NCBI RefSeq assembly: GCF_000001735.4
Contig: NC_003076.8
Coordinates: 4,774,001 to 4,838,000, forward strand
DNA: 64,000 bases
Direction: 5' to 3'
Origin: Arabidopsis thaliana
Taxonomy: Eukaryota; Streptophyta; Magnoliopsida; Brassicales; Brassicaceae
The position numbers and the translations under genes were made by a program. A model generated the notes under the pieces. It searched no databases. It was not told the DNA's origin and worked only from the letters and a program-made list of their open reading frames with translations. Shown one piece after another: positions 12,190 through 28,098 of the stretch (positions are counted from its first letter, which is position 1; each line of letters opens with the position of its first letter).

Positions 12190-13618
12190 TTAGCTCTGTG
12201 AGAGCTCGCGGCTTCGTTTAGCTGCAGCAACAACTGCATTCATAAGTGTTGCCCGGAAAGAGCCTTTCTCTAGTTCATGAACTCCGGCTATTGTAGTGCC
12301 GCCAGGTGAGGTAACATCATCTTTCAACACACCTGGATGCTTCCCAGTTTTGCTAACCATCGTTGCAGCTCCAAGAACCTGTAATAGGAAACAAAAAACC
12401 TCAAAGCTTAGGGTTCTCTTTCTAGTTTCGGTATTCAATACCATAATAAAGCAGATTAAAGAAGCGATGTAGATGTTCACTGACGGTCTGTGAAGCTAAA
12501 CTCAATGCAAGCTCTCGGGGTAAACCAGCAGCTACTCCTCCATCGGCTAAAGCTTCAATTGCTAAAAATATGTATGCTGGTCCACTTCCACTGTAAAAAG
12601 TTTGAAATTTTCTTGATTAGTGACTTGAACAACTCAAGCATTTCAGCAGCTACAGTGTTTTCCTGTACCTGAGACCAGTGACAGCATCAAACATTTTCTC
12701 ATCAGCTTTCAATATCTTCCCCACCGCGCCAAACAACATAGCAACAATTGCTCCATCCTCTTCCGTTGCTCCTGTGCCAAGGCTCATAACTATATACACA
12801 CAACATAATTGGCAAATGTAAGCATTTGACAGCTTCAGAGAGAAACAGAAATCACAAACAAAATTCAGAAATATCACAAATGCGAACACTCTGATAAACT
12901 ATACCTGAAGCTGCCTCACCAACAGCGGCAGGTGTATTAGGCATCACCCTTATGAATCGATCTTGACCAGACCATTCCTAAAAACAAAAAGGAGAGACCT
13001 TTATGTTTTTTAACCAAATTGAGCTCTAGAAACTCACAATGCAACACCATGGATAGTGACAACTTAAATGGCAAATGTATAGGAGTATAAATGATGCAAA
13101 ACCTGTAAATCATTCAACTTGATTCCAGCTGCAACAGAAACCAGAATCTTATTCTTTGAAAGCTTCGACTTTAATTCTGTGACAGCCTTCTTAACTACAT
13201 CATATGAAAGGTACAACTTTAAGTCAACACAAAATTACATTGATGAATCAATCATATAATCAATGGATAGGTAAGAAATATATATACCAACTTGAGGTTT
13301 CACAGAGAATATGACAACATCGCTTTCTTTAACAACCTGTCATTTTTTTGAAGATCGTCAATCTCAATTTAGTTCATCACCACAACAACAACAACAAGAC
13401 ATTGAAAAAGAACTTACTTCTTCGCTAGTGGAGAAGACATTGACGCCAAAGGATTCGAAGACATCACGGCGATTGAGATTTGAGTGAACGGCGGTGCATA
13501 TACGATTAGGAGGAAGCACACCGGAAGCAACCACACCTCTAGCTATACTCTCCGCCATTTTACCAGCTCCGATGAATCCTACCTTGAAACTCTCCGCCGG
13601 AATCGGAAGAATCTCCAT
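12190..13618 (-). CDS. P5CR: Pyrroline-5-carboxylate reductase
   Basis: Reduces delta1-pyrroline-5-carboxylate to proline with NAD(P)H, the last step of proline synthesis. Seven exons, right to left: 13418-13618, 13288-13336, 13103-13194, 12905-12977, 12669-12789, 12485-12590, 12190-12378; 276 residues, the family length. The N-terminal Rossmann motif [16 protein letters not shown] is at about residues 13-28; [23 protein letters not shown] and the C-terminal signature [16 protein letters not shown] are present. There is no targeting peptide. The start at 13618 is the only in-frame Met before the Rossmann strand. Only 12 bp upstream of the ATG, at 13631, the sequence becomes retrotransposon LTR in the same orientation, so the native promoter is missing or displaced. 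A copy of part of exon 5 and intron 4 lies at 25572. Confidence 0.97.
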
Positions 13619-13630
13619 CGGGAAAATTTA

Positions 13631-14011
13631 ACGGGCCGGCTGGCGAGATACTTCGGACGGGTGAGCTGACGAGCTGCTTGAGACGGGCGAGCTGATGAGC
13701 TACTTGAGACGGACCGGCTGACGAGATGCTTCAGACGGGTGATCTGACGAGCTGCTTGAGACGGGCCGGCTGGCGAGATACTTCAGACGGGTGAGCTGAC
13801 GAGCTGCTCTTTGTCTCTAAGTGTCCTCGCGGCCTCCCCCTTTGACAAGACATGCTATTCCGTATTTATAGCCTTCTGCGCGTGTAGGGCATTCATCGAG
13901 GGATTTGACGAAACTACCCTTCGCCTTAATACTCCTTGGTTTGGAACTTATTTTGGGCTTTTGACTTGGGTTTGGGCATTGGGCCAAGTAGGCCCAATCC
14001 GACCCCTAACA
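13631..14011 (-). mobile_element. Truncated 3' LTR of retrotransposon A
   Basis: On the minus strand it starts TGTTAGGGGTC at 14011 and matches the complete LTR at 25963-26858. Aligned over 26516-26858 by eye there are 3 substitutions and one 38-bp length difference. It breaks off at 13631, where the P5CR leader begins, so the last roughly 550 bp of the LTR are lost. It includes 26-bp tandem units (GACGGGTGAGCTGACGAGCT and variants) at 13631-13806. A polypurine tract (GGGGGGCAAC on the minus strand, 14012-14021) sits immediately upstream, as expected for a 3' LTR. Confidence 0.85.
13861..13871 (-). promoter_or_regulatory. LTR-A TATA box upstream of P5CR
   Basis: CTATAAATACG on the minus strand, about 145 bp into the LTR, is a strong TATA box. 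Transcription would start near 13835 and run into P5CR with a leader of about 215 nt. No ATG occurs on the minus strand between 13840 and the P5CR ATG. Confidence 0.55.
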
Positions 14012-14505
14012 GTTGCCCCCCAATCCTGATGCATCGTTGATGACGTGGATCAGGATTTCAGGTGCACGAAACTCAATCGAAGGAAGTGAAAAGTCGCGCA
14101 TGGGGAAGACGCAATGTTTGGTTTGTCTTTCATGATTCTCAAGGTTCGAGGATCGAAACGTCGCGTGGCTATCAAAGTATAGGCTGCTATTACGGCAATG
14201 TGCTGTCTCGGTGATAGTCAAGCGAGACGACAAGGAAGGTTAAAAGGGTCGCCTCGGCTGTTGCGTGACCGTCGCATTTCTGAAGAGCCTCCTGGATCAA
14301 AGTGGTCGTCTGGTGTTCGAGTTGGGATGTTCGAGTCATTCGAAAGTGGTTCTTTGAGGGGGAGAGGGAAGAGACGAGGGTCGTTAATCGTGATGAACAA
14401 CGAGCTAGCGTTCCGAACTCGTCCGATGCGTTTTGCGTGCCAATGATCATTATTGGAGTTATCGTTTCGTTTGAAGGAGGCGTTCCTTTTGCTTTGAACT
14501 CTGGT
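14012..14505 (-). mobile_element. 3' internal remnant of retrotransposon A
   Basis: Runs from the polypurine tract to the border of element B. It is GC-richer than the genome average, like the LTR. There are open stretches on both strands but no recognised domain. Confidence 0.5.
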
Positions 14506-14660
14506 GATGTTAAGCAAAGCACGTGTTGTGAGCTGGCGAGCTGGCAATGTGAAGTCAGGGATGTTAAGCAAAGCACGTGTTGTGAGCTGGCGAGCTGGCA
14601 ATGTGAAGTCAGGGATGTTAAGCAAAGCACGTGTGTTGTGAGCTGGCGAGCTGGCAATGC
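14506..14660 (+). repeat. 54-bp tandem repeat x3, each with a G-box
   Basis: Units begin GATGTTAAGCAAAGCACGTG at 14506, 14560 and 14614. Each contains CACGTG (14520-14525, 14574-14579, 14628-14633) and GAGCTGGCGAGCTGGCAAT. The same unit is found in the related LTR copies at 17418-17446 and, inverted, at 25486-25870. Confidence 0.9.
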
Positions 14661-14967
14661 AAATGGACGTTAACGGCGATCGTTATTAACGTGGTTAACG
14701 TTTACTTTCTTTACCTTTTTGTATAAGAGCAACATGTTATGCTCATGCTTTCATTATCGAATAATCTGGTTGTAATCTCTCTCTAGAGACTTCTAGATTT
14801 CCCTCATCGTTTTACCGGAGCTCTCGTCGAGTCTCTTGTAGGTGAGAAGTTGATATCGCGTCTCTTTACGAACGTTGTATCAAGTGTGTTAATCGGAGTA
14901 CTTTGTTTTCATCTCTCTGTTCTATTGATTTCAAACTCTGTCTATTCATTTCTGGTTTACGTTAACA
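14508..14967 (+). mobile_element. 5' LTR of retrotransposon B
   Basis: Starts TGTTAAGC and ends CGTTAACA, directly before a primer-binding site. It has a TATA-like TTGTATAAGAG at about 14718-14728. Near-identical in reverse to 25158-25560. The LTR may have lost about 70 bp at its 5' end, because the 3' LTR starts with TGTTATAGG and has extra sequence before the first repeat unit. Confidence 0.75.
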
Positions 14968-14968
14968 C

Positions 14969-14981
14969 TGGTATCAGAGCC
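14969..14981 (+). other. Primer-binding site (initiator tRNA-Met type) of element B
   Basis: TGGTATCAGAGCC, one base after the LTR, is the classical plant PBS complementary to the 3' end of initiator tRNA-Met. Confidence 0.9.
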
Positions 14982-15000
14982 AAGCGTTTCCTCGGAATCA

Positions 15001-17151
15001 ATGGCAGAAACTCGTTCGCAGATGTTTTATCGGGAGGTTTCAGCTATTCACGAAACTATGTATCCGTCATTGAAAGTGGTTTGTGGTCACAAATCTGATG
15101 TGCGTTCCGGCAAAGCGGCGACGACGAATCAGCAATTTGGTGTTCAATCCTCACCGTGCATCGGAGAATCAATGTTGGATACGAGAGCTTACAACATTGG
15201 AAGATCCTCACAGCTGATATCTACAGCTCCGATCGTCACTCCTGACACCAGCAAAGAGAGAGTCGGTATGTCGAACAAATATTTTCCATTGGAAGAGAGA
15301 TCTGATTTTGCGAGACTTGAGCATCTCAGATTTAATGGTGATAGAATTACAGAATGGTTGTTCCAGATTGAACAATTTTTCTTAATTGATCGTACTCCGG
15401 AGGAATTGAAAGTTGGTTTCGCTTCACTCCATTTCGATGACACTGCTGCGACTTTGCACCAATCAATTGTACAATCGATGTGGTGGAAGCATGTTAGGCA
15501 TGATTGGTGGAGTTACAAACTGTTGTTGCAAGTGAGATATGATGAGCATGTTAATGACTCGATTGCAAAACTGACACAGTTGCAGGAGACTGAAGGAATA
15601 GAGGAGTATCATGCTCGATTTGAGTTGATTAGCACTAGATTGAACTTCGCTGAAGATTACTTGGTTAGTGTTTACTTGGCAGGTTTGAGAACTGATACTC
15701 AACTGAATGTTAGGATGTTTGGACCTCAGACAATTCAACAATGTTTAATGTTGGGAAGATTATATGAGATGGCTCACCCAAAGAGTGTGCTTATCAGAAA
15801 AGAGAGTGATGATTATCAGAAAGAAGCTCAACATGTTTCAAGTAATGCTGCAGGAACTTCTATGATTAATGATGGTAATTGCATGATAGGTAATGATGGA
15901 GATCGATTCCTTAGTGGTTCAGACTTGGTAGAGAATGCGGTTGCGACGGTGAAGAAATATTTGGTTGAAATTGATGATGCTGTGTCTAGTGATGATGATC
16001 AAAATTCGGATGCTGGGGACGTATTTGGATTCAACATAGAAGAGTGTGAAACAGATTCATGGATTGAACATAAGCCGTTGATTCAAGATCAAGCCGCGTT
16101 TCACTCCATAGACATAGAAGGTGTCTCACAACTTCAGAAGGTTCGTTCAAACCTTAAGGATTTTGATAAAGTTGATGCAACAATGAATCAAATGCTGTCA
16201 TCAATTGGATTTGTTGTTGATGAATTACACTCTAGTTGTGGAAGTGCTACCGTCCATGTCCAGAAGAAGCCTAGTAAGTCTCTCAAATCCTGGAAGTTCA
16301 AATTTAAAACCAGCTCACAAGACCAAGGGGATCATGAATCACTTCCAATAGGGTTACATATCAGATTCAAGTCCTGGAAATTTAAGTTCGTGAATAGAAA
16401 TTTACAAATGATGAGAGAACATGGATATACAACACACTTTCAGCTAATGTCTGATAAGAGAGAACATCAAGAGATGTTCATTGTGGCCAGGATTGTTGAT
16501 GTGAGATGTTTGCTTAGCATGATACTTGGGATAACAGAGAGTGATGCAGGTCATGGAGAACAATTTGTGTATGATCGGATTACAATGGTAAAGAGGCTGC
16601 TGTTGCAAACCAGTTTAGTCATTCAAGAAGTGATGAGAAACAAAAAGATCAAGTTTACCAAACGGTGGTGGTTCAAGTATAAATTTGGGGAAGAGGGTTT
16701 CACGAGACTGAATTCTTTCAATTTGCGTATGACTTATCATTTTGCGGTTTGGCATTGTTGGAAGAGCAAGACCATGGTGCATGTTGAAATGAGTGGTGAT
16801 CACTGGTCTTGGATGGTCTTAGTCATGAAATCTACAACATCTAGCTTTTTGTCACTTCTCTATGATCGAAGAATGGGAGATCCAAGCAGACATGAAACGG
16901 GTCGGGAGATTGTGTCACTTCAGGGTCAAATTCACACTGGTTCTCCTATGATTCAGTGCATAAAGATGAGCTTCAGCATTCTCCTTCTTCAGGGTCTGTT
17001 TCAGAGTTTGACAATGAAGATGCTCACATATATGCACTTGTTTGGTAGCAAAAGTTGTGTTTCAACTTTGGGAGTGAGGAAATTAGGCAAAGATTGGTGG
17101 TTTAAATACAAGACAGATGCAAGGGCTACAGATTTACTGACAAATCCGTAG
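15001..17151 (+). CDS. Gag-like protein of non-autonomous LTR retrotransposon B (716 aa)
   Basis: The single long ORF of element B, starting MAETRSQMFYREV 20 bp after the primer-binding site. Residues about 95-260 look like a Ty3-type retrotransposon gag domain: LEHLRFNGDRITEWLFQIEQ, then FASLHFDDTAATLHQSI, LLLQVRYDE, EEYHARFELISTRL and YLVSVYLAGLRTDTQL. No zinc knuckle, protease, reverse transcriptase or integrase follows. The second half is unusual: an acidic stretch (VSSDDDQNSDAG) and then four short basic-aromatic motifs, SWKFKF twice and WWFKYK twice. The ORF is intact over 2.1 kb, which fits a young insertion. The element would need enzymes in trans. It is not a host gene. Confidence 0.8.
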   Translation: MAETRSQMFYREVSAIHETMYPSLKVVCGHKSDVRSGKAATTNQQFGVQSSPCIGESMLDTRAYNIGRSSQLISTAPIVTPDTSKERVGMSNKYFPLEERSDFARLEHLRFNGDRITEWLFQIEQFFLIDRTPEELKVGFASLHFDDTAATLHQSIVQSMWWKHVRHDWWSYKLLLQVRYDEHVNDSIAKLTQLQETEGIEEYHARFELISTRLNFAEDYLVSVYLAGLRTDTQLNVRMFGPQTIQQCLMLGRLYEMAHPKSVLIRKESDDYQKEAQHVSSNAAGTSMINDGNCMIGNDGDRFLSGSDLVENAVATVKKYLVEIDDAVSSDDDQNSDAGDVFGFNIEECETDSWIEHKPLIQDQAAFHSIDIEGVSQLQKVRSNLKDFDKVDATMNQMLSSIGFVVDELHSSCGSATVHVQKKPSKSLKSWKFKFKTSSQDQGDHESLPIGLHIRFKSWKFKFVNRNLQMMREHGYTTHFQLMSDKREHQEMFIVARIVDVRCLLSMILGITESDAGHGEQFVYDRITMVKRLLLQTSLVIQEVMRNKKIKFTKRWWFKYKFGEEGFTRLNSFNLRMTYHFAVWHCWKSKTMVHVEMSGDHWSWMVLVMKSTTSSFLSLLYDRRMGDPSRHETGREIVSLQGQIHTGSPMIQCIKMSFSILLLQGLFQSLTMKMLTYMHLFGSKSCVSTLGVRKLGKDWWFKYKTDARATDLLTNP

Positions 17152-17566: not shown

Positions 17567-18071
17567 TTTGATACAGAGAACTTTCAGGCGACCTCGATCC
17601 CATTATCGCTAAAGGTTGTGATTCTTCATTGAGTATCTTGGAATTTAAGAATTCAAAAAAATATGACCCTCTCATATAAAATGGTGTGTGTGGGTCTGTT
17701 GTGTAATGAAAACATCTACGTTTCATCTTCCTTTTGTTAAACTTTGTTTTGTATTCAAATGATTTGCAGACGGTTTAAGCTCTGTTTTAAGCTATTATCT
17801 CGGCCTACTTGCATTTCTTCACTTTCTCAGTGAAAGAATGATTAATTTTTTTCATTAGAGTGCACAATTGTTAATTAATATTTTCTTGTTATAGAAGCAA
17901 ATTACAAAAAAGCTATCTGACAGATTCCAATGTGATCAGTTCAGTCCAAGCTGTGCTAGTGAAGTCATATTCTTGATTCAAGTAAGAGTTGTGGCTCGAA
18001 AACCAACCATTTGCAGATAAGCTTTCTCCGAGTGAGTGAGTTGAATGATCCAGTTACCCGCCCCCAAGTTA

Positions 18072-19868
18072 TCAATCTTCCATGAATCTCTGTTTGCATC
18101 TCCTTCTAGTCATCTGAGCCCATCTCGCAAAGATCTCTGCTGCAGCAAACTTACCTGAGAACTTAGCTCTCTGTGCCAATTCCTCAAATATCTCCGGTTG
18201 TCCCCCTCTGTGGAAATCAGCTGCAAACTTGTTATAATCAATCAAAGGGGTTTTCATTCCTTTGTCAAGCATCTCCTCCAAGTATCTGCATGCCTCTCTC
18301 GACTTCCCTTCACTTATAAGCCCTCTGATCAAAACCGTGTAGGAGTTATCGTCAGGACAAATCCCTTTCTTGATCATCTCGTCCCAAACTGCTCTCCCCA
18401 TCTCATAGTTTCTCGCCACGAAGTAAGATTTCATTATCATGTTGAACGTGTGTATCGATGGCTCAATTTCGTTCTGGATCATCTTGTTGTAGATCCTTGT
18501 GCCATGTTCCGGCATTTTCTGGTTCGCCATCAGTTTGATCAACGCATTATACGTTTTGCCATCCGGAGGGTGTCCCTTTTCTTGCATCTCCTTGAGCAGT
18601 TCGTAAACAGTATCCAGCTTCTTCTGAGTCCCAAACCCCGTGATCAGACACGTGTAAACCGCAGCATCAGGTTGCAACCCGGAATCAACCATGTCATCAA
18701 AGTACTCAATGGCAGTTTCCATGCTCGACTGTTTGCAGAAGTCCCGGATCATGATGGTATAGCTACGGACATTAGGGCAAGGTCCCTTGGATTTCATAAC
18801 ATGGAACAATTTGATCGCATCTGATTTTTTCATACTCCTCAACAACCCTTCAAGCATTACGTTGTGAGCTACAATGTCAGGTTTCAATCCGTGATCAATC
18901 ATATCATTCCAGATTCTAGCTGCTTCTATCAAGTTCCTCACCCTGCACCAACCATTGAGTAGAACAGTGTAAGTCATCATATTAGGTGTAAACCTCTCCT
19001 TCAGCTTATCAAACAGAACCTGAGCTTCTTTTCCAAGCTTAGCCCTGCCAAGACTATCAAGCAAGCAATTAATGGTTTCAACACCAATCTTAAACTTGTA
19101 CTTCTTCATCAACTCAAAGATACCAACAGCTTTCTTCCTCTCTTTCGCAGCAGCGAAAGCTTTCATCGCGATAGTGAATGTCTCCATCGTCAATAGACCT
19201 TTCGTACCCATCTCTTCGAGTACCGAAACCATCGTCTCGAACTGTCTAGTCTTTGCTAAAATACTCATCATGGAGTTATATGTTCTTGAGTCATGAGCAA
19301 ATCCTTGTCTCTCTGCAGCCCAACAGAAGAACCTAAATGCAGGCTTCCTAGCATGTCGAAAACGTTCTAAAACCTCAACGATGAGATCATGTGATAAATC
19401 TAGTTTCATTTCATCAAGAACAGCTTCCATATTTCTATCTAACGCAAACAATTCATCAATCACTTTGCAGACTCTCTCTACTTCTTCCGGATTAGTACTT
19501 GATTCAACACAACTGACCCCAGTTTCTTCATCATTATCGCATTCAGATTCAACTTCTTCATCACATCCATCACTAACATTAGAACTACCACTAGAGAAAC
19601 CTCTACACCCAAGACTCGCATCAAGCAGTTGTACAGAGTGTGGCAATGGAATTTGACGGTAAGGATGATAAGTAGAAGAATGAATCATACGAGAGAAGAG
19701 AGCACCGGAAAATCGTACTTCCTCTTCTCCTCTCCCGCCGATTACGCGGCTTTGACTGGAAATGAATTCATCGGCATCGAATGAAGAAGAGCAAATGAGG
19801 AATCTTCTTAATGAAGTCTGAGTGGAGCTTCTTCTCCTAGAGAGATAGAGCCATGGAGCAGCAGCCAT
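18072..19868 (-). CDS. Pentatricopeptide repeat protein (At5g14820-like), intronless
   Basis: A P-class PPR protein of 598 residues, predicted mitochondrial. Residues 1-100 are an Arg/Ser-rich presequence (MAAAPWLYLSRRRSSTQTSL) and an acidic linker. From about residue 190 to 560 roughly eleven 35-residue repeats follow, e.g. RTYNSMMSILAKT, MMTYTVLLNGWCRVRNLIEA, RSYTIMIRDFCKQ and KTYNALIKLMANQ. The C-terminus is basic and the frame is intact, so it looks functional. From memory it has very close paralogues on chromosome 3 (At3g62470, At3g62540). It sits inside the LTR-bounded nest: element B and a third element end 0.5 kb to its left and a B-type LTR begins 200 bp to its right. Its own site II promoter elements came with it, which argues for DNA-level duplication, not a retrocopy. 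Confidence 0.93.
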   Translation of the reverse strand: MAAAPWLYLSRRRSSTQTSLRRFLICSSSFDADEFISSQSRVIGGRGEEEVRFSGALFSRMIHSSTYHPYRQIPLPHSVQLLDASLGCRGFSSGSSNVSDGCDEEVESECDNDEETGVSCVESSTNPEEVERVCKVIDELFALDRNMEAVLDEMKLDLSHDLIVEVLERFRHARKPAFRFFCWAAERQGFAHDSRTYNSMMSILAKTRQFETMVSVLEEMGTKGLLTMETFTIAMKAFAAAKERKKAVGIFELMKKYKFKIGVETINCLLDSLGRAKLGKEAQVLFDKLKERFTPNMMTYTVLLNGWCRVRNLIEAARIWNDMIDHGLKPDIVAHNVMLEGLLRSMKKSDAIKLFHVMKSKGPCPNVRSYTIMIRDFCKQSSMETAIEYFDDMVDSGLQPDAAVYTCLITGFGTQKKLDTVYELLKEMQEKGHPPDGKTYNALIKLMANQKMPEHGTRIYNKMIQNEIEPSIHTFNMIMKSYFVARNYEMGRAVWDEMIKKGICPDDNSYTVLIRGLISEGKSREACRYLEEMLDKGMKTPLIDYNKFAADFHRGGQPEIFEELAQRAKFSGKFAAAEIFARWAQMTRRRCKQRFMED

Positions 19869-19944
19869 GGAAGCTCGACGGCGATTAGCAATGGCGAAGT
19901 CGGTGAAAAGCCACTGATTTACGGCGGAGAGCTCTTCACGTATT

Positions 19945-20003
19945 TGGGCCTTTGTTTGATTAGAAGCTTTGAGTGATAATAATTTTGACCCATTAAAGGC
20001 CCA
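19945..20003 (-). promoter_or_regulatory. Site II elements upstream of the PPR gene
   Basis: TTGGGCC near 19945 and AGGCCCAT near 19998, about 80-135 bp upstream of the start codon, match the TGGGCC site II motif seen at other PPR promoters. Confidence 0.4.
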
Positions 20004-20066
20004 TTGATCTGGTCACATATAACCATTGGGTCCACCAGGAGCATTAAAGCTCAAACGCATATAAAC

Positions 20067-22090: not shown

Positions 22091-22580
22091 CAGGGCGATC
22101 TAACGTTCGAATAAACGCCCTTGTGATAGCTGGCGACCTTGTTTAACTCTAATTTATTCTGGAATAAATGTCTTTGTAATAGCTCCCGATCTCGTTTGGT
22201 CGTTGATTAATACAATGCGATTTTATTAAATTGGCTTATTTCCTCCGCGACCACTGAGGTCGGCTTTTGAGTTCTTTTCGAACGCAATTTTTTCTAATTG
22301 GATTAGATGTTAGGTGCGAGACTGAGCCCGGCTTTTGAGAGAATATTCAGCGTGTGCTGGACGCGAGACGTCTCTCGGCTTATGTCCAGCAGGCTTATGT
22401 ATGATTTAAAGAGGGAGTTCTGGGCTCTGTTTCCAAAATAAGTGAGGCGGGCTCAGCATATTATTTGGGGGGCGAGATGCTGGGCTCGGCTTACTCCCCG
22501 TAGAGCATCTGTTCGGCAGATCGCGAAACGGTTCGGCTTATGTTTCTGTCCGAACCAGAGCTTATGTTTCTGGACGCAAA

Positions 22581-22730
22581 GGCGAGCTCGAGTGTGGGAA
22601 GAAAAGGCGAACTCGAGTGTGGGAAGCAAAGGCGAACTCGAGTGTGGGAAGCATAGGCGAGCTCGAGTGTGGGAAGCAAAGGCGATCTCGAGTGTGGGAA
22701 GCAAAGGCGATCTCGAGTGTGGGAAGCAAG
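22581..22730 (+). repeat. 25-bp tandem repeat x6
   Basis: Six units of GGCGA(G/A/T)CTCGAGTGTGGGAAGCAAA with 1-2 substitutions each, immediately before a putative short LTR. The CTCGAGTG motif reappears once at about 22840. Confidence 0.95.
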
Positions 22731-23807: not shown

Positions 23808-25157
23808 GGTAAGAATAATGACGAATTGAATTACGATGAAAACGAAAATTTTACTTATCTCAGCGCAAGAGTTTGTGGTACGATCGAGTTTTAAGGGTCG
23901 AGTTCGTTGATACAATTATCGAAAAGACGATGCTCGATGTCTGCCCTAGTTCTTGTCAGTTCGTTCGTCCGACGTGACGTTGTGCTAAGCGGCATCGTTT
24001 TTTTCGTTTGTGGGATGGCGTTGGGACGAGATCTCCGATGTTTTGAGTGACGACGTGAATTTCGCTGTTGTGGAGAGTTTGGCTTTTCTTCAGTTCGCCT
24101 AGCTCCAGCAGGTGCTGTTACTTTTAGTTTGCATGATGGCGCGAATGGCGTTTGGTTGGTTGCGTCGTTGTGTACGTCCAGAGCCGTCTGGTTCTTTCGT
24201 CTAGCTTCTCGTAGCATGCCGACATGATGTGTCTTGTTAGTCGTTTTGGTGTGATCATTGCTTTGCGGTATTCGCGAAACATTGGCGTCAGTGTCGGATC
24301 GTCGATATCCCTTATGGCGCGTCCGACCTCATGGACCCTGGAGATGGCTCAATTGATTTGGGAGTGAAGGTCTTGCACTTGGTATCTCGTTTATAGCGGT
24401 CTGAGGAATTGCCGAGCTGAGTTGGTTTACGACAACCTGAATTTCTTCGCGTAGGTCGGGTATGCGAATAACGACTCATGTGCATGCGGCTGATTTTATC
24501 TTGTATGTGCTCTTGGGCGGCGGTTAATAATCGCGTTGCGCTGCTTTAAATGATCGATGATGGTGTTGAGTAGTTCTTCGCCGCGTTGGTTGCTTTTAGC
24601 CGTATCGTCCAGGCGATGAAATCGGCTAGGTGAAGTTTCTCCTTGGTCTTTTTGCAACGCTAGGTATTCAGGCGTGGGCGATAACGAGGTCGGTACAATA
24701 GATGACGCCGAGTATTATTTTTCCTTTATTTGAATCGTCTTCCCGTGCGCTGACGTTATCGTCCGAGCTGCCGAGCTGGTAGTGTCATCGTCGAGGTTTT
24801 CTAAGTGACGTTCGCCTGATGACTTCTCCTCTTGGTCTTGGTTAGGCGCGAGTGATAACGAGGTCGGTATGTTTAATGAGGTTATGGGATGTTCCTCTTT
24901 GATCGGCGGCACTTCCTCGTTGGTCAGTGTTATTGTCCTGACTGCCGGGCTGGAAGTGTCATCGCCTAGGATGATGGGGTCGATAGTTCCTTGAAGTCCT
25001 TTTCTTGTCGGAGAACATGCTGCGATATCGAATGAAGAGGTCGAGTGACTGGCTCTCCCGGGGATCGACGTTGTCGTTTTACTTCCAGAGCCTGACGAGT
25101 CGGTATCGAATGCTCCATGTAGTCTGTTTGTTGTCACTTTGCTTCGTCGCGGGGTCG
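23808..25157 (-). pseudogene. Decayed gag-like region of retrotransposon A
   Basis: The minus strand has an open segment 24715-25157 (PRRSKVTTNRLHGAFDTDSS, Ser/Thr-rich) and a second at 23891-24217 (RRKNQTALDVHNDATNQT, Arg/Pro/Thr-rich), with broken frames between that still read like gag (YLALQKDQGETSPSRFHRLD). Its composition is like the N-terminal gag region of plant Ty3 elements. Position and orientation, downstream of the minus-strand LTR A and its primer site, support the assignment. No domain is confidently recognised. Confidence 0.45.
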
Positions 25158-25910
25158 TGTTAACGTAAACCAGAAATGAATAAACAGAGTTTGAAATCAA
25201 TAGAACAGAGAGATGAAAACAAAGTACTCCGATTAACACACTTGATACAACGTTCGTTAAGAGACGCGATATCAACTTCTCACCTACAAGAGACTCGACG
25301 AGAGCTCCGGTAAAACGATGAGGGAAATCTAGAAGTCTCTAGAGAGAGATGACAACCAGATTATTCGATAATGAAAGCATGAGCATAACATGTTGCTCTT
25401 ATACAAAAAGGTAAAGAAAGTAAACGTTAACCACGTTAATAACGATCGCCGTTAACGTCCATTTGCATTGCCAGCTCGCCAGCTCAAAACACGTGCTTTG
25501 CTTAACATCCCTGAGTTCACATTGCCATCTCGCCAGCTCACAACACACACGTGCTTTGCTTAACATCCCTGGCCAAACAACTTAGCAACAATTGCTCCAT
25601 CCTCTTCCGTTGCTCCTGTGCCAAGGCTCATAACTATATACACACAACATAATTGGCAAATGTAAGCATTTGACAGCTTCAGAGAGAAACAGAAATCACA
25701 AACAACATAATTGGCAAATGTAAGCATTTGACAACACGTGCTTTGCTTAACATCCCTGACTTCACATTTCCAGCTCGCCAGCTCACAACACGTGCTTTGC
25801 TTAACATCCCTGACTTCACATTGCCAGCTCGCCAGCTCACAACACACGTGCTTTGCTTAACATCCCTGACTTCACATGTGTGAGCTTGACCTTCTAGAAC
25901 GCTATATCAG
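25158..25910 (-). mobile_element. Inverted B-family LTR with expanded repeats
   Basis: From 25158 (TGTTAACGTAAACC) it is the reverse complement of LTR B (14508-14967) with very few differences. To the right the 54-bp repeats are expanded, with CACGTG at 25490, 25548, 25735, 25789 and 25845, and interrupted by the P5CR fragment. The right edge near 25910 is recognised by GATATAGCGTTC, the counterpart of CTATAGCGTTC at 17371. No primer-binding site follows the LTR end, so only the LTR is present. Confidence 0.75.
25572..25733 (+). pseudogene. Captured fragment of P5CR (part of exon 5 and intron 4)
   Basis: 25572-25704 matches 12728-12860 base for base except one substitution seen (AACTTAG for AACATAG). 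It covers part of exon 5, the intron 4 acceptor and most of intron 4. Then 25705-25733 repeats 25647-25675 (ACATAATTGGCAAATGTAAG). Intron sequence shows the copy came from genomic DNA, not cDNA. It has no coding role. Confidence 0.93.
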
Positions 25911-25944
25911 GTCGTAGTTTTGAGAGATATCTTCGAGCTATCCC

Positions 25945-25962
25945 CCTACCTGGCGCGCCAAC
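25945..25962 (-). other. Primer-binding site of retrotransposon A
   Basis: On the minus strand LTR A ends CATCAACA, then GT, then TGGCGCGCCAGGTAGG. The complement ends in CCA as a tRNA 3' end would; the tRNA is not identified. Confidence 0.65.
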
Positions 25963-26858
25963 TGTTGATGCACGAATCACACAAGTACGAAAATGGGATC
26001 TCTAGGGAAGGAAGAAAAATCTTTCTATTAATACGAGCCCGCGACTTAGGCGAATTGGACGGATTACAAAGGATGATTTCTTCAACGAGCACAGATGGAG
26101 TAAGAACGAGCTGATTGTAGATAAAAGGCGAACTTGAGGCCGGAAGACGATCTTGATGTCCGAGGAAGAATAGAGTTTATTCGTTTTATAGCTGAACCTT
26201 GTAAAAGGCTGCCTACGTACCCTTAGAAAGGGATCAAGCCACACGTAGTTCATATCGCGATAAACGAACTAGGCCATTACTGGAGGAAGGTCGTATGTCG
26301 AGTTAGGCAGTTTTAGGGATGATCCGGCGGATAAGTGACGAGTTGAATGGCTTCTCGAGACGTGCGAGTAGGTTAGTTACTTTGGGCGGGCAAGTCGGCG
26401 AGACACTTCGGACGGACGAGTAAACGAGCTACTCAAGATAGATGGGCAAACGAGGTACTTCGGACGGGTGAGCTGACGAGCTGCTTGAGACGGGCGAGAT
26501 GATAAGCTACTTGAGACGGGCCGGCTGGCGAGATACTTCGGACGGGTGAGCTGACGAGCTGCTTGAGACGGGTGAGCTGATGAGCTACTTGAGACGGACC
26601 GGCTGACGAGATGCTTCAGACGGGTGAGCTGACGAGCTGCTTTAGACGGGCCGGCTGGCGAGATACTTCAGACGGGTGAGCTGACGAGCTGCTCTTTGTC
26701 TCTAAGTGTCCTCGCGGCCTCCCCCTTTGACAAGACATGCTATTCCGTATTTATAGCCTTCTGCGCGTGTAGGGCATTCATCGAGGGATTTGACGAAACT
26801 ACCCTTCGCCTTAATACTCCTTGGTTTGGAACTTATTTTGGGCTTTTGACCCCTAACA
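25963..26858 (-). mobile_element. 5' LTR of retrotransposon A
   Basis: 896 bp with TGTTAGGGGTC...CATCAACA ends (minus strand). Contains about ten 26-bp units (GACGGGTGAGCTGACGAGCT and relatives) at about 26395-26694, the TATA box CTATAAATACGG near 26746-26760, and a 38-bp deletion relative to the other LTR at 26850. Confidence 0.85.
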
Positions 26859-28098
26859 GGAGGAGCTGTACTGGGAAAGGAAAACACTGAAGAAACGAGG
26901 TAACACACCACTTGAAGCCATGGAGGACGTAGGAACTGTGAGAGAAAGAAATAGAGAAGAGGAATTAGGAAAAAAACATGAAAGCGACAGAGTTTAAGAG
27001 ACGTTGAGAACAAAGAAGAGAGATTCTTACCAAGAAGGGAGCTGTTCTGGTCCCAAAGGGTTCTCTTAGGAAGACCAAAGTCAAGAGTTTGAATTCTTAA
27101 CAGGAATAAAGTGAGAGAGTGCAATGTAAGCAGAACACAATCAATGTGTGTTTCTTACATACGAACCTGTCTTCTCTGTCCTTTCTATTCGTATACCAAA
27201 TGAGAAAGAAGCATTGCTTTTTGTCTTTTATTTTTCTTAGAAAGCCCAAGAGTTTTGGACTATTGGTAGCTTTGGAGTTAAAGTCACATGTAAAAACAGA
27301 GTCTCAAGCTCATTTTATTAAGTAACTCTAAATTTTCAATCTTACTAGTTAATATTCTCTTGCTTGCAAATATCAATTTGAATTGATGACCGATTAGTAA
27401 GTAGCTTCTTGATTGTTCAACATAACCATGTGAATGTCACTATTAGGGGAAGCAGTTAAACTAGAGTGAGTGAGCCAAAGACTTGAGAGAGATGGTGTTG
27501 TTTTGTTTCATCCTTAGTTTATTCACCATTTAATTTCCAAAACAACCCCACAATTTGTACTATAGTACACTCAATGATAGCAAAGAATGAGAAGATGAGT
27601 CAATGACACCAAAATATGCTTTCTTTAGACATTGTGTGGCAAAAACATTGAAAGCTATATCCAGTTCTGTACTCAATCTCTCTGCACTGTTTTGTCCTAT
27701 CACTTTCTTTTATATCGAATTGAGAAAATATCTGTTTAATCCAGATTAAATAAAACCGATGCTATGCAATTAGTAAGTTAACTAATCATTGAGTTTGTTT
27801 TTAATTATGATCAGTGAGGTCGTTAGTTCAGGTTCATTTAACAGTTTTTTGTTTTAACGATTCTGTTTATCTAAATACTTATGGGCAAAAGAATGTGATT
27901 AAGACTCTCTGTCGTCATAGAAATTAACTAGTCTCAAATTACATCTCTGTTCTATCTATACTCATTGTTAACCGGGACATACTGGAACTAAAACAGATAC
28001 CAAGATTAGGCTCTTAAGGTACAAAATACTGTTTGATTGTGAGACAGAGGAGTTCAGAGAGGTTCTAATGATTATAAAAACCTTGAGGTTGCGTACTC
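26859..28098. other. Spacer right of the nest, possible truncated gene fragment
   Basis: 26859-27124 has, on the minus strand, a 30-odd-residue open stretch (MHSLTLFLLRIQTLDFGLP...) ending at a good donor (CTTCTTG/GTAAGAAT, about 27029) and a later acceptor-like TTTCCCAG near 26870, then LTR A. It could be the 5' part of a gene or leader cut off by the insertion. The remainder to 28098 is AT-rich with nothing recognised. Confidence 0.3.

Follow-up and report, generated by a model that had tools for sequence, protein, structure and literature searches.

The results of this study indicated that the gene for pyrroline-5-carboxylate reductase (P5CR), the enzyme of the last step of proline synthesis, is most likely transcribed from a fragment of a retrotransposon in Arabidopsis thaliana. 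We consider it very probable that an LTR retrotransposon was inserted into the first exon of a B3-type gene, that a deletion followed, and that the U3 region and TATA box of the remaining 3' LTR now transcribe P5CR from the start predicted below. The window, which is the whole stretch of 64,000 nucleotides that was analysed, lies on Chr5 (window position x = Chr5 4,774,000 + x), and the genome-wide searches covered one A. thaliana genome (119.66 Mb, 7 contigs), which we take to be that of strain Col-0 (TAIR10). Col-8, the source of a construct described below, is presumably a Columbia line and was taken to carry the Columbia arrangement. In a profile search, the spliced translation of P5CR matched the NCBIfam profile proC, pyrroline-5-carboxylate reductase, with an E value of 1.5e-90 and 303 bits (cut-off, 197), and the gene is At5g14800, an identifier that is also present in PMC3493334. 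According to that paper, Arabidopsis has one P5CR gene, which its embryos require for their development.

Table 1. Coordinates of P5CR, the adjoining element and the interrupted B3-type gene in the window.
Feature	Position	Strand	Remarks
P5CR coding region	12190..13618	(-)	seven exons; spliced translation of 276 aa; NCBIfam proC
Spacer between ATG and LTR, TAAATTTTCCCG	13619..13630	(-)	12 bp
3' LTR, truncated	13631..14011	(-)	first 381 bp of the LTR, in P5CR sense; begins TGTTAGGGG at 14011
26-bp tandem array	13631..13808	(-)	cut short at 13631; would make most of the P5CR leader
TATA box of the element, CTATAAATACG	13861..13871	(-)	CTATAAATAC in 10/10 aligned rows
Polypurine-tract-like stretch before the 3' LTR, GGATTGGGGGGCAAC	14012..14026	(-)	L003 and L028 have a similar stretch before their LTR
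Primer-binding-site-like stretch after the 5' LTR, GTTGGCGCGCCAGGTAGGGG	25943..25962	(-)	an identical stretch follows the L025 LTR
5' LTR of the same element	25963..26858	(-)	896 bp, both ends present; TGTTAGGGG...CATCAACA
Broken first exon of the B3-type gene, MASSGVLPRFFSVFLSQYSSS	26859..26921	(-)	cut by the 5' LTR

The original prediction placed the P5CR ATG at 13618 on the (-) strand, followed by 12 bp and then by an LTR from 13631 in the same orientation as P5CR. These coordinates held, as did the orientation, since the LTR stretch 13631-14011 is on the (-) strand like P5CR, and the motif claimed at 13861-13871 was found, reading from 13871 to 13861 on the (-) strand. What begins at 13631 is indeed LTR sequence, but it is a 381-bp fragment and not a whole LTR, its partner being 896 bp long. 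The 12 bp at 13619-13630 were the portion of the upstream 1.7 kb that had no repeat match, and they are probably the last of the native P5CR leader. A genome-wide search tolerating up to 2 mismatches gave a single occurrence of the 19-bp string that spans the P5CR/LTR junction; a derivation of the 12 bp from the LTR array was rejected, because the junction had no second genome copy at that tolerance.

The piece beside P5CR and the LTR at 25963-26858 were interpreted, from their sequences, as a pair of LTRs belonging to a single element. Positions 13631-13965 and 26516-26850 were 99.1% identical over 335 bp in the same orientation, with 3 mismatches, and the U3 stretch 13811-13965 was identical to the partner LTR across 155 bp; the 5' LTR is without ca. 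46 bp near its start. The near-identical direct terminal repeats of an LTR retrotransposon were thus found, one of them truncated, together with TG...CA ends, a primer site (GTTGGCGCGCCAGG...) and a polypurine tract (GATTGGGGGGCAAC). The primer-binding-site-like stretch is presumably an initiator-tRNA primer site. At least 63 places in the genome, including the element's own copies, matched the LTR. The other genome matches of at least 200 bp to a 393-bp query reached 85% identity at most; shorter LTR matches included L008 (93% over the first 201 bp) and L024 (94% over 137 bp), and a C4 copy reached 97% in the second half of the LTR. At a mutation rate of 7e-9 per site per year, the LTR divergence of 0.9% corresponds to ca. 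0.64 My, an estimate with a wide range because it is derived from only 3 mismatches. No pol domain (reverse transcriptase or integrase) by which the element could be placed in the Ty1 or Ty3 superfamily was found among six ORFs scanned in the window and in two stretches of relatives. Searches for relatives outside the genome gave 0 hits in viral contigs with one pattern and no match in plasmids.

Several further features of the transposon cluster and the LTR family were observed. Inverted copies of a second LTR are present at 14495-14968 and 25157-25877, and downstream of the former, on the + strand, are a primer-site-like stretch (14969-14981) and then a gag ORF (15001-17151; Pfam Retrotrans_gag); these second-LTR copies and the gag ORF apparently belong to younger elements nested within the outer element. 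Between the two LTRs of the outer element, a 2.5-kb segment (17577-20061) carries an intact 598-aa PPR gene and is 99.8% identical, with 2 mismatches, to C3:23133019-23135506, and another copy, also on chromosome 3, is 98% identical at the protein level, suggesting that the segment was copied very recently or arose by gene conversion. The 137 bp at 25572-25708, inside a nested LTR copy, are a copy of the end of an intron and the start of an exon of P5CR (12728-12864; 2 mismatches) located 12.8 kb away, and a P5CR stretch of ca. 36 bp is re-copied alongside. This segment looks like filler DNA from break repair for which P5CR would have been the template. The cluster also contains a separate 25-bp tandem array of 6.3 copies (22572-22729). 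Elsewhere, several family LTR copies with the same flanks lie in C1:8778137-8830733, including three at intervals of 14,378 bp that show no differences in the compared stretch, which points to tandem duplication of an LTR-holding segment.

Beyond the far end of the P5CR element lie a promoter-like region and the 5' UTR of a B3-type gene that has the same orientation. Three starts resembling MASSGVLPRFFSVFLSQYSSS were located elsewhere in the genome by a pattern search (C5:20072136, C3:1884692 and C3:1865679). In both C3 genes, this start is followed by an intron and then a Pfam B3 domain (E values of 7.3e-14 and 6.5e-15), and the C5:20072136 copy has a stop after ten codons. When a remnant of B3 exon 2 was sought in the window, the best E value was 2.0 and none was left. 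The native P5CR promoter had been predicted to be displaced 13 kb to the right; this found no support, because the DNA on that far flank is the 5' end of the truncated B3-type gene. It is therefore more likely that P5CR's own promoter was deleted.

The junction beside P5CR also bears on how this loss occurred. Repeats of 5 bp (GCTAC, ACAGT and GAATT) were found at all three of the distinct complete LTRs flanked by ordinary DNA, with the GCTAC repeat occurring at several duplicate loci. The P5CR element showed no target-site duplication, as its 3' LTR lacks the end. The P5CR-side piece stops within the 26-bp tandem array, not at the terminal AACA; no LTR end adjoins P5CR, and the junction does not represent the terminus of an insertion. 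In the simplest reading of these sequences, the element would have entered exon 1 of the B3-type gene and a later deletion would have removed the P5CR promoter. It is possible, if somewhat unlikely, that the junction was instead made by imperfect integration, in which a damaged element copy was end-joined and flanking DNA was lost. A missing 3' LTR end together with an exact 5' LTR end is consistent with such an event, but nothing separates it from a later deletion. The conclusion on the promoter is the same under both.

The motif CTATAAATAC was present in all ten family rows of a U3 alignment, which comprised the P5CR LTR, its partner L002 and eight others, and it is therefore the element's own TATA box. 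Of the 14 loci given to the U3 search, 12 matched (L023 and L025 did not); L028, whose match covered the first 71 bp only and fell short of the TATA box, and L005 and L006, which equal L007 in the compared stretch, were left out of the alignment, and L004 and L007, which were kept, share their flanks and seem to be duplicates. The TATA block was the best conserved stretch seen in this alignment, and TATAAATA arose in 2 of 2,000 single-base shuffles of the LTR piece. A start predicted at 13835 would give a leader of 217 nt, all but 12 nt of it LTR if unspliced. The 222 nt from 13840 to 13619 are free of ATG, in agreement with the predicted leader of about 215 nt without an upstream ATG, and the nearest ATG in the LTR is at 13853, above the predicted start. 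No special RNA fold of the leader was found (z = -0.93; 34 of 200 shuffles fold as well). An LTR in the sense orientation with a core promoter directly above the gene, the arrangement that characterises LTR-derived promoters, was thus present at P5CR, and the LTR TATA box, being in sense, conserved and followed by an ATG-free leader, is most likely the start signal, of which it is the best candidate.

Repeat matches covered 1,688 of the 1,700 bp above the P5CR ATG. Copies outside the window alone covered 1,659 bp; the remainder consisted of 13619-13630 and 14502-14530, the latter matching a copy inside the same transposon cluster. As described by Funck et al. 2012 (PMC3493334), 1700 bp of upstream DNA and the gene from Col-8 were fused to GFP, homozygous p5cr plants carrying this fragment grew, and expression was strongest in young growing tissue. 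A 35S-driven P5CR-GFP fusion gave no homozygous p5cr plants, for which the authors suggest poor activity of 35S in embryos as the cause. Since the rescuing 1.7 kb would correspond to the repeat-covered interval, DNA that is transposon-made apart from 12 bp appears to suffice for the essential expression of P5CR. The construct spans the whole upstream interval and does not place the active part or the start within it. The original proposal of the LTR as the P5CR promoter was thus supported in part, by the place, sense and conserved TATA box of the LTR and by the published rescue with a 1.7-kb fragment that would here be transposon DNA except for 12 bp; it was not supported with respect to the displaced native promoter, and the start at 13830-13840 stays a prediction.

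It is improbable that P5CR is driven by transposon DNA other than the LTR TATA box, that is, by a TATA-less start in the 26-bp array, closer to the ATG, or by the nested LTR or the interior of the element in 14012-15318. The rescuing fragment does include the array and all of 14012-15318 (PMC3493334), and PMC7319988 reports that core promoter elements alone are insufficient for initiation in LTRs and do not predict their activity, and that numerous starts in LTRs remain cryptic in wild-type plants. Against this, the TATA block is the stretch that the family has conserved best, and the primer-site-like stretch and gag ORF that follow the nested LTR at 14495-14968 are on the + strand; this LTR, therefore, points away from P5CR. 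A native start within the 12 bp, or a native promoter above 26858 driving a long transcript spliced into P5CR, is very improbable, since a reported 92-bp P5CR 5'UTR fragment would be too long for the former if the allele is alike (Hua et al. 2001, as cited in PMC5601411), and, in spite of the promoter-like region and 5' UTR of the same-strand gene beyond the element, the latter would lie 13 kb off when 1.7 kb was enough for rescue (PMC3493334).

For the LTR TATA box as the promoter of P5CR, we infer the start site, the unspliced leader, the deletion mechanism and the prior order (B3 gene - P5CR) as follows. An LTR retrotransposon in the P5CR sense would have inserted into exon 1 of the B3-type gene. 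A later deletion, or imperfect integration on that side, would have taken the second part of the 3' LTR with its target duplication, the remainder of the B3 gene, and the P5CR promoter and leader down to -12. The surviving U3 and TATA box of the 3' LTR would now transcribe P5CR, with RNA polymerase II starting ca. 25-35 bp below the TATA box, and the resulting leader of ca. 215 nt would be LTR in all but 12 nt, mainly 26-bp repeats.

An LTR promoter would imply that the stress-regulating 5'UTR of P5CR is largely transposon. According to PMC5601411, which cites Hua et al. 2001, a 92-bp fragment of this 5'UTR affects the stability of the mRNA under heat, and stress inhibition of translation has been ascribed to the 5'UTR, seemingly inconsistent with the accumulation of proline under stress (Hua et al. 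2001, as cited in PMC4517315). If the allele of Hua et al. 2001 is alike, at least 80 bp of any 92-bp leader would be LTR. In a comparison of the upstream regions of 27 plant P5CR genes by Fichman et al. 2015, as described in PMC5454058, no sites were conserved and AtP5CR had sites of its own; a first kilobase made of transposon would explain both observations. We tentatively suggest, as a proposal that falls a little short of probable, that the stress-responsive P5CR 5'UTR is a retrotransposon tandem-repeat array that was acquired within about the last 1-2 My, and that the puzzling inhibition of translation under stress is a side effect of promoter replacement, confined to A. thaliana or perhaps even to certain accessions, rather than a mechanism conserved among plants.

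Co-option of LTR promoters is an already known kind of event. NAIP in mammals (PMC1781489) and PsMYB10.2 in Japanese plum (PMC9715577) are likewise reported to have a sense LTR close above the gene that may supply or change the promoter. P5CR differs from them in that it is an essential single-copy gene, in that only part of an LTR is present, joined to it 12 bp above the ATG, and in that no native promoter is left within the next 1.7 kb. Transposable element sequence is likewise present at transcript starts of Arabidopsis genes in PMC10241880 and PMC7319988, where LTR starts share TATA and YR motifs; unlike P5CR, the cases in both papers concern alternative or normally silent starts, and neither main text mentions P5CR. 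A search of titles and abstract starts, mostly of papers outside subscription, found no report linking AtP5CR with a transposon among the papers listed, and genome annotation or supplementary tables may show the P5CR/LTR overlap already.

If the LTR is the promoter, P5CR would represent a clean natural promoter replacement in a core metabolic gene, and, given the age of ca. 0.64 My, the older promoter may survive in some accessions or in A. lyrata. If true, this would recast the stress effects of the 5'UTR that have been called seemingly inconsistent with stress proline accumulation (PMC4517315), and it opens to testing how an LTR that lies next to an essential gene avoids being silenced.
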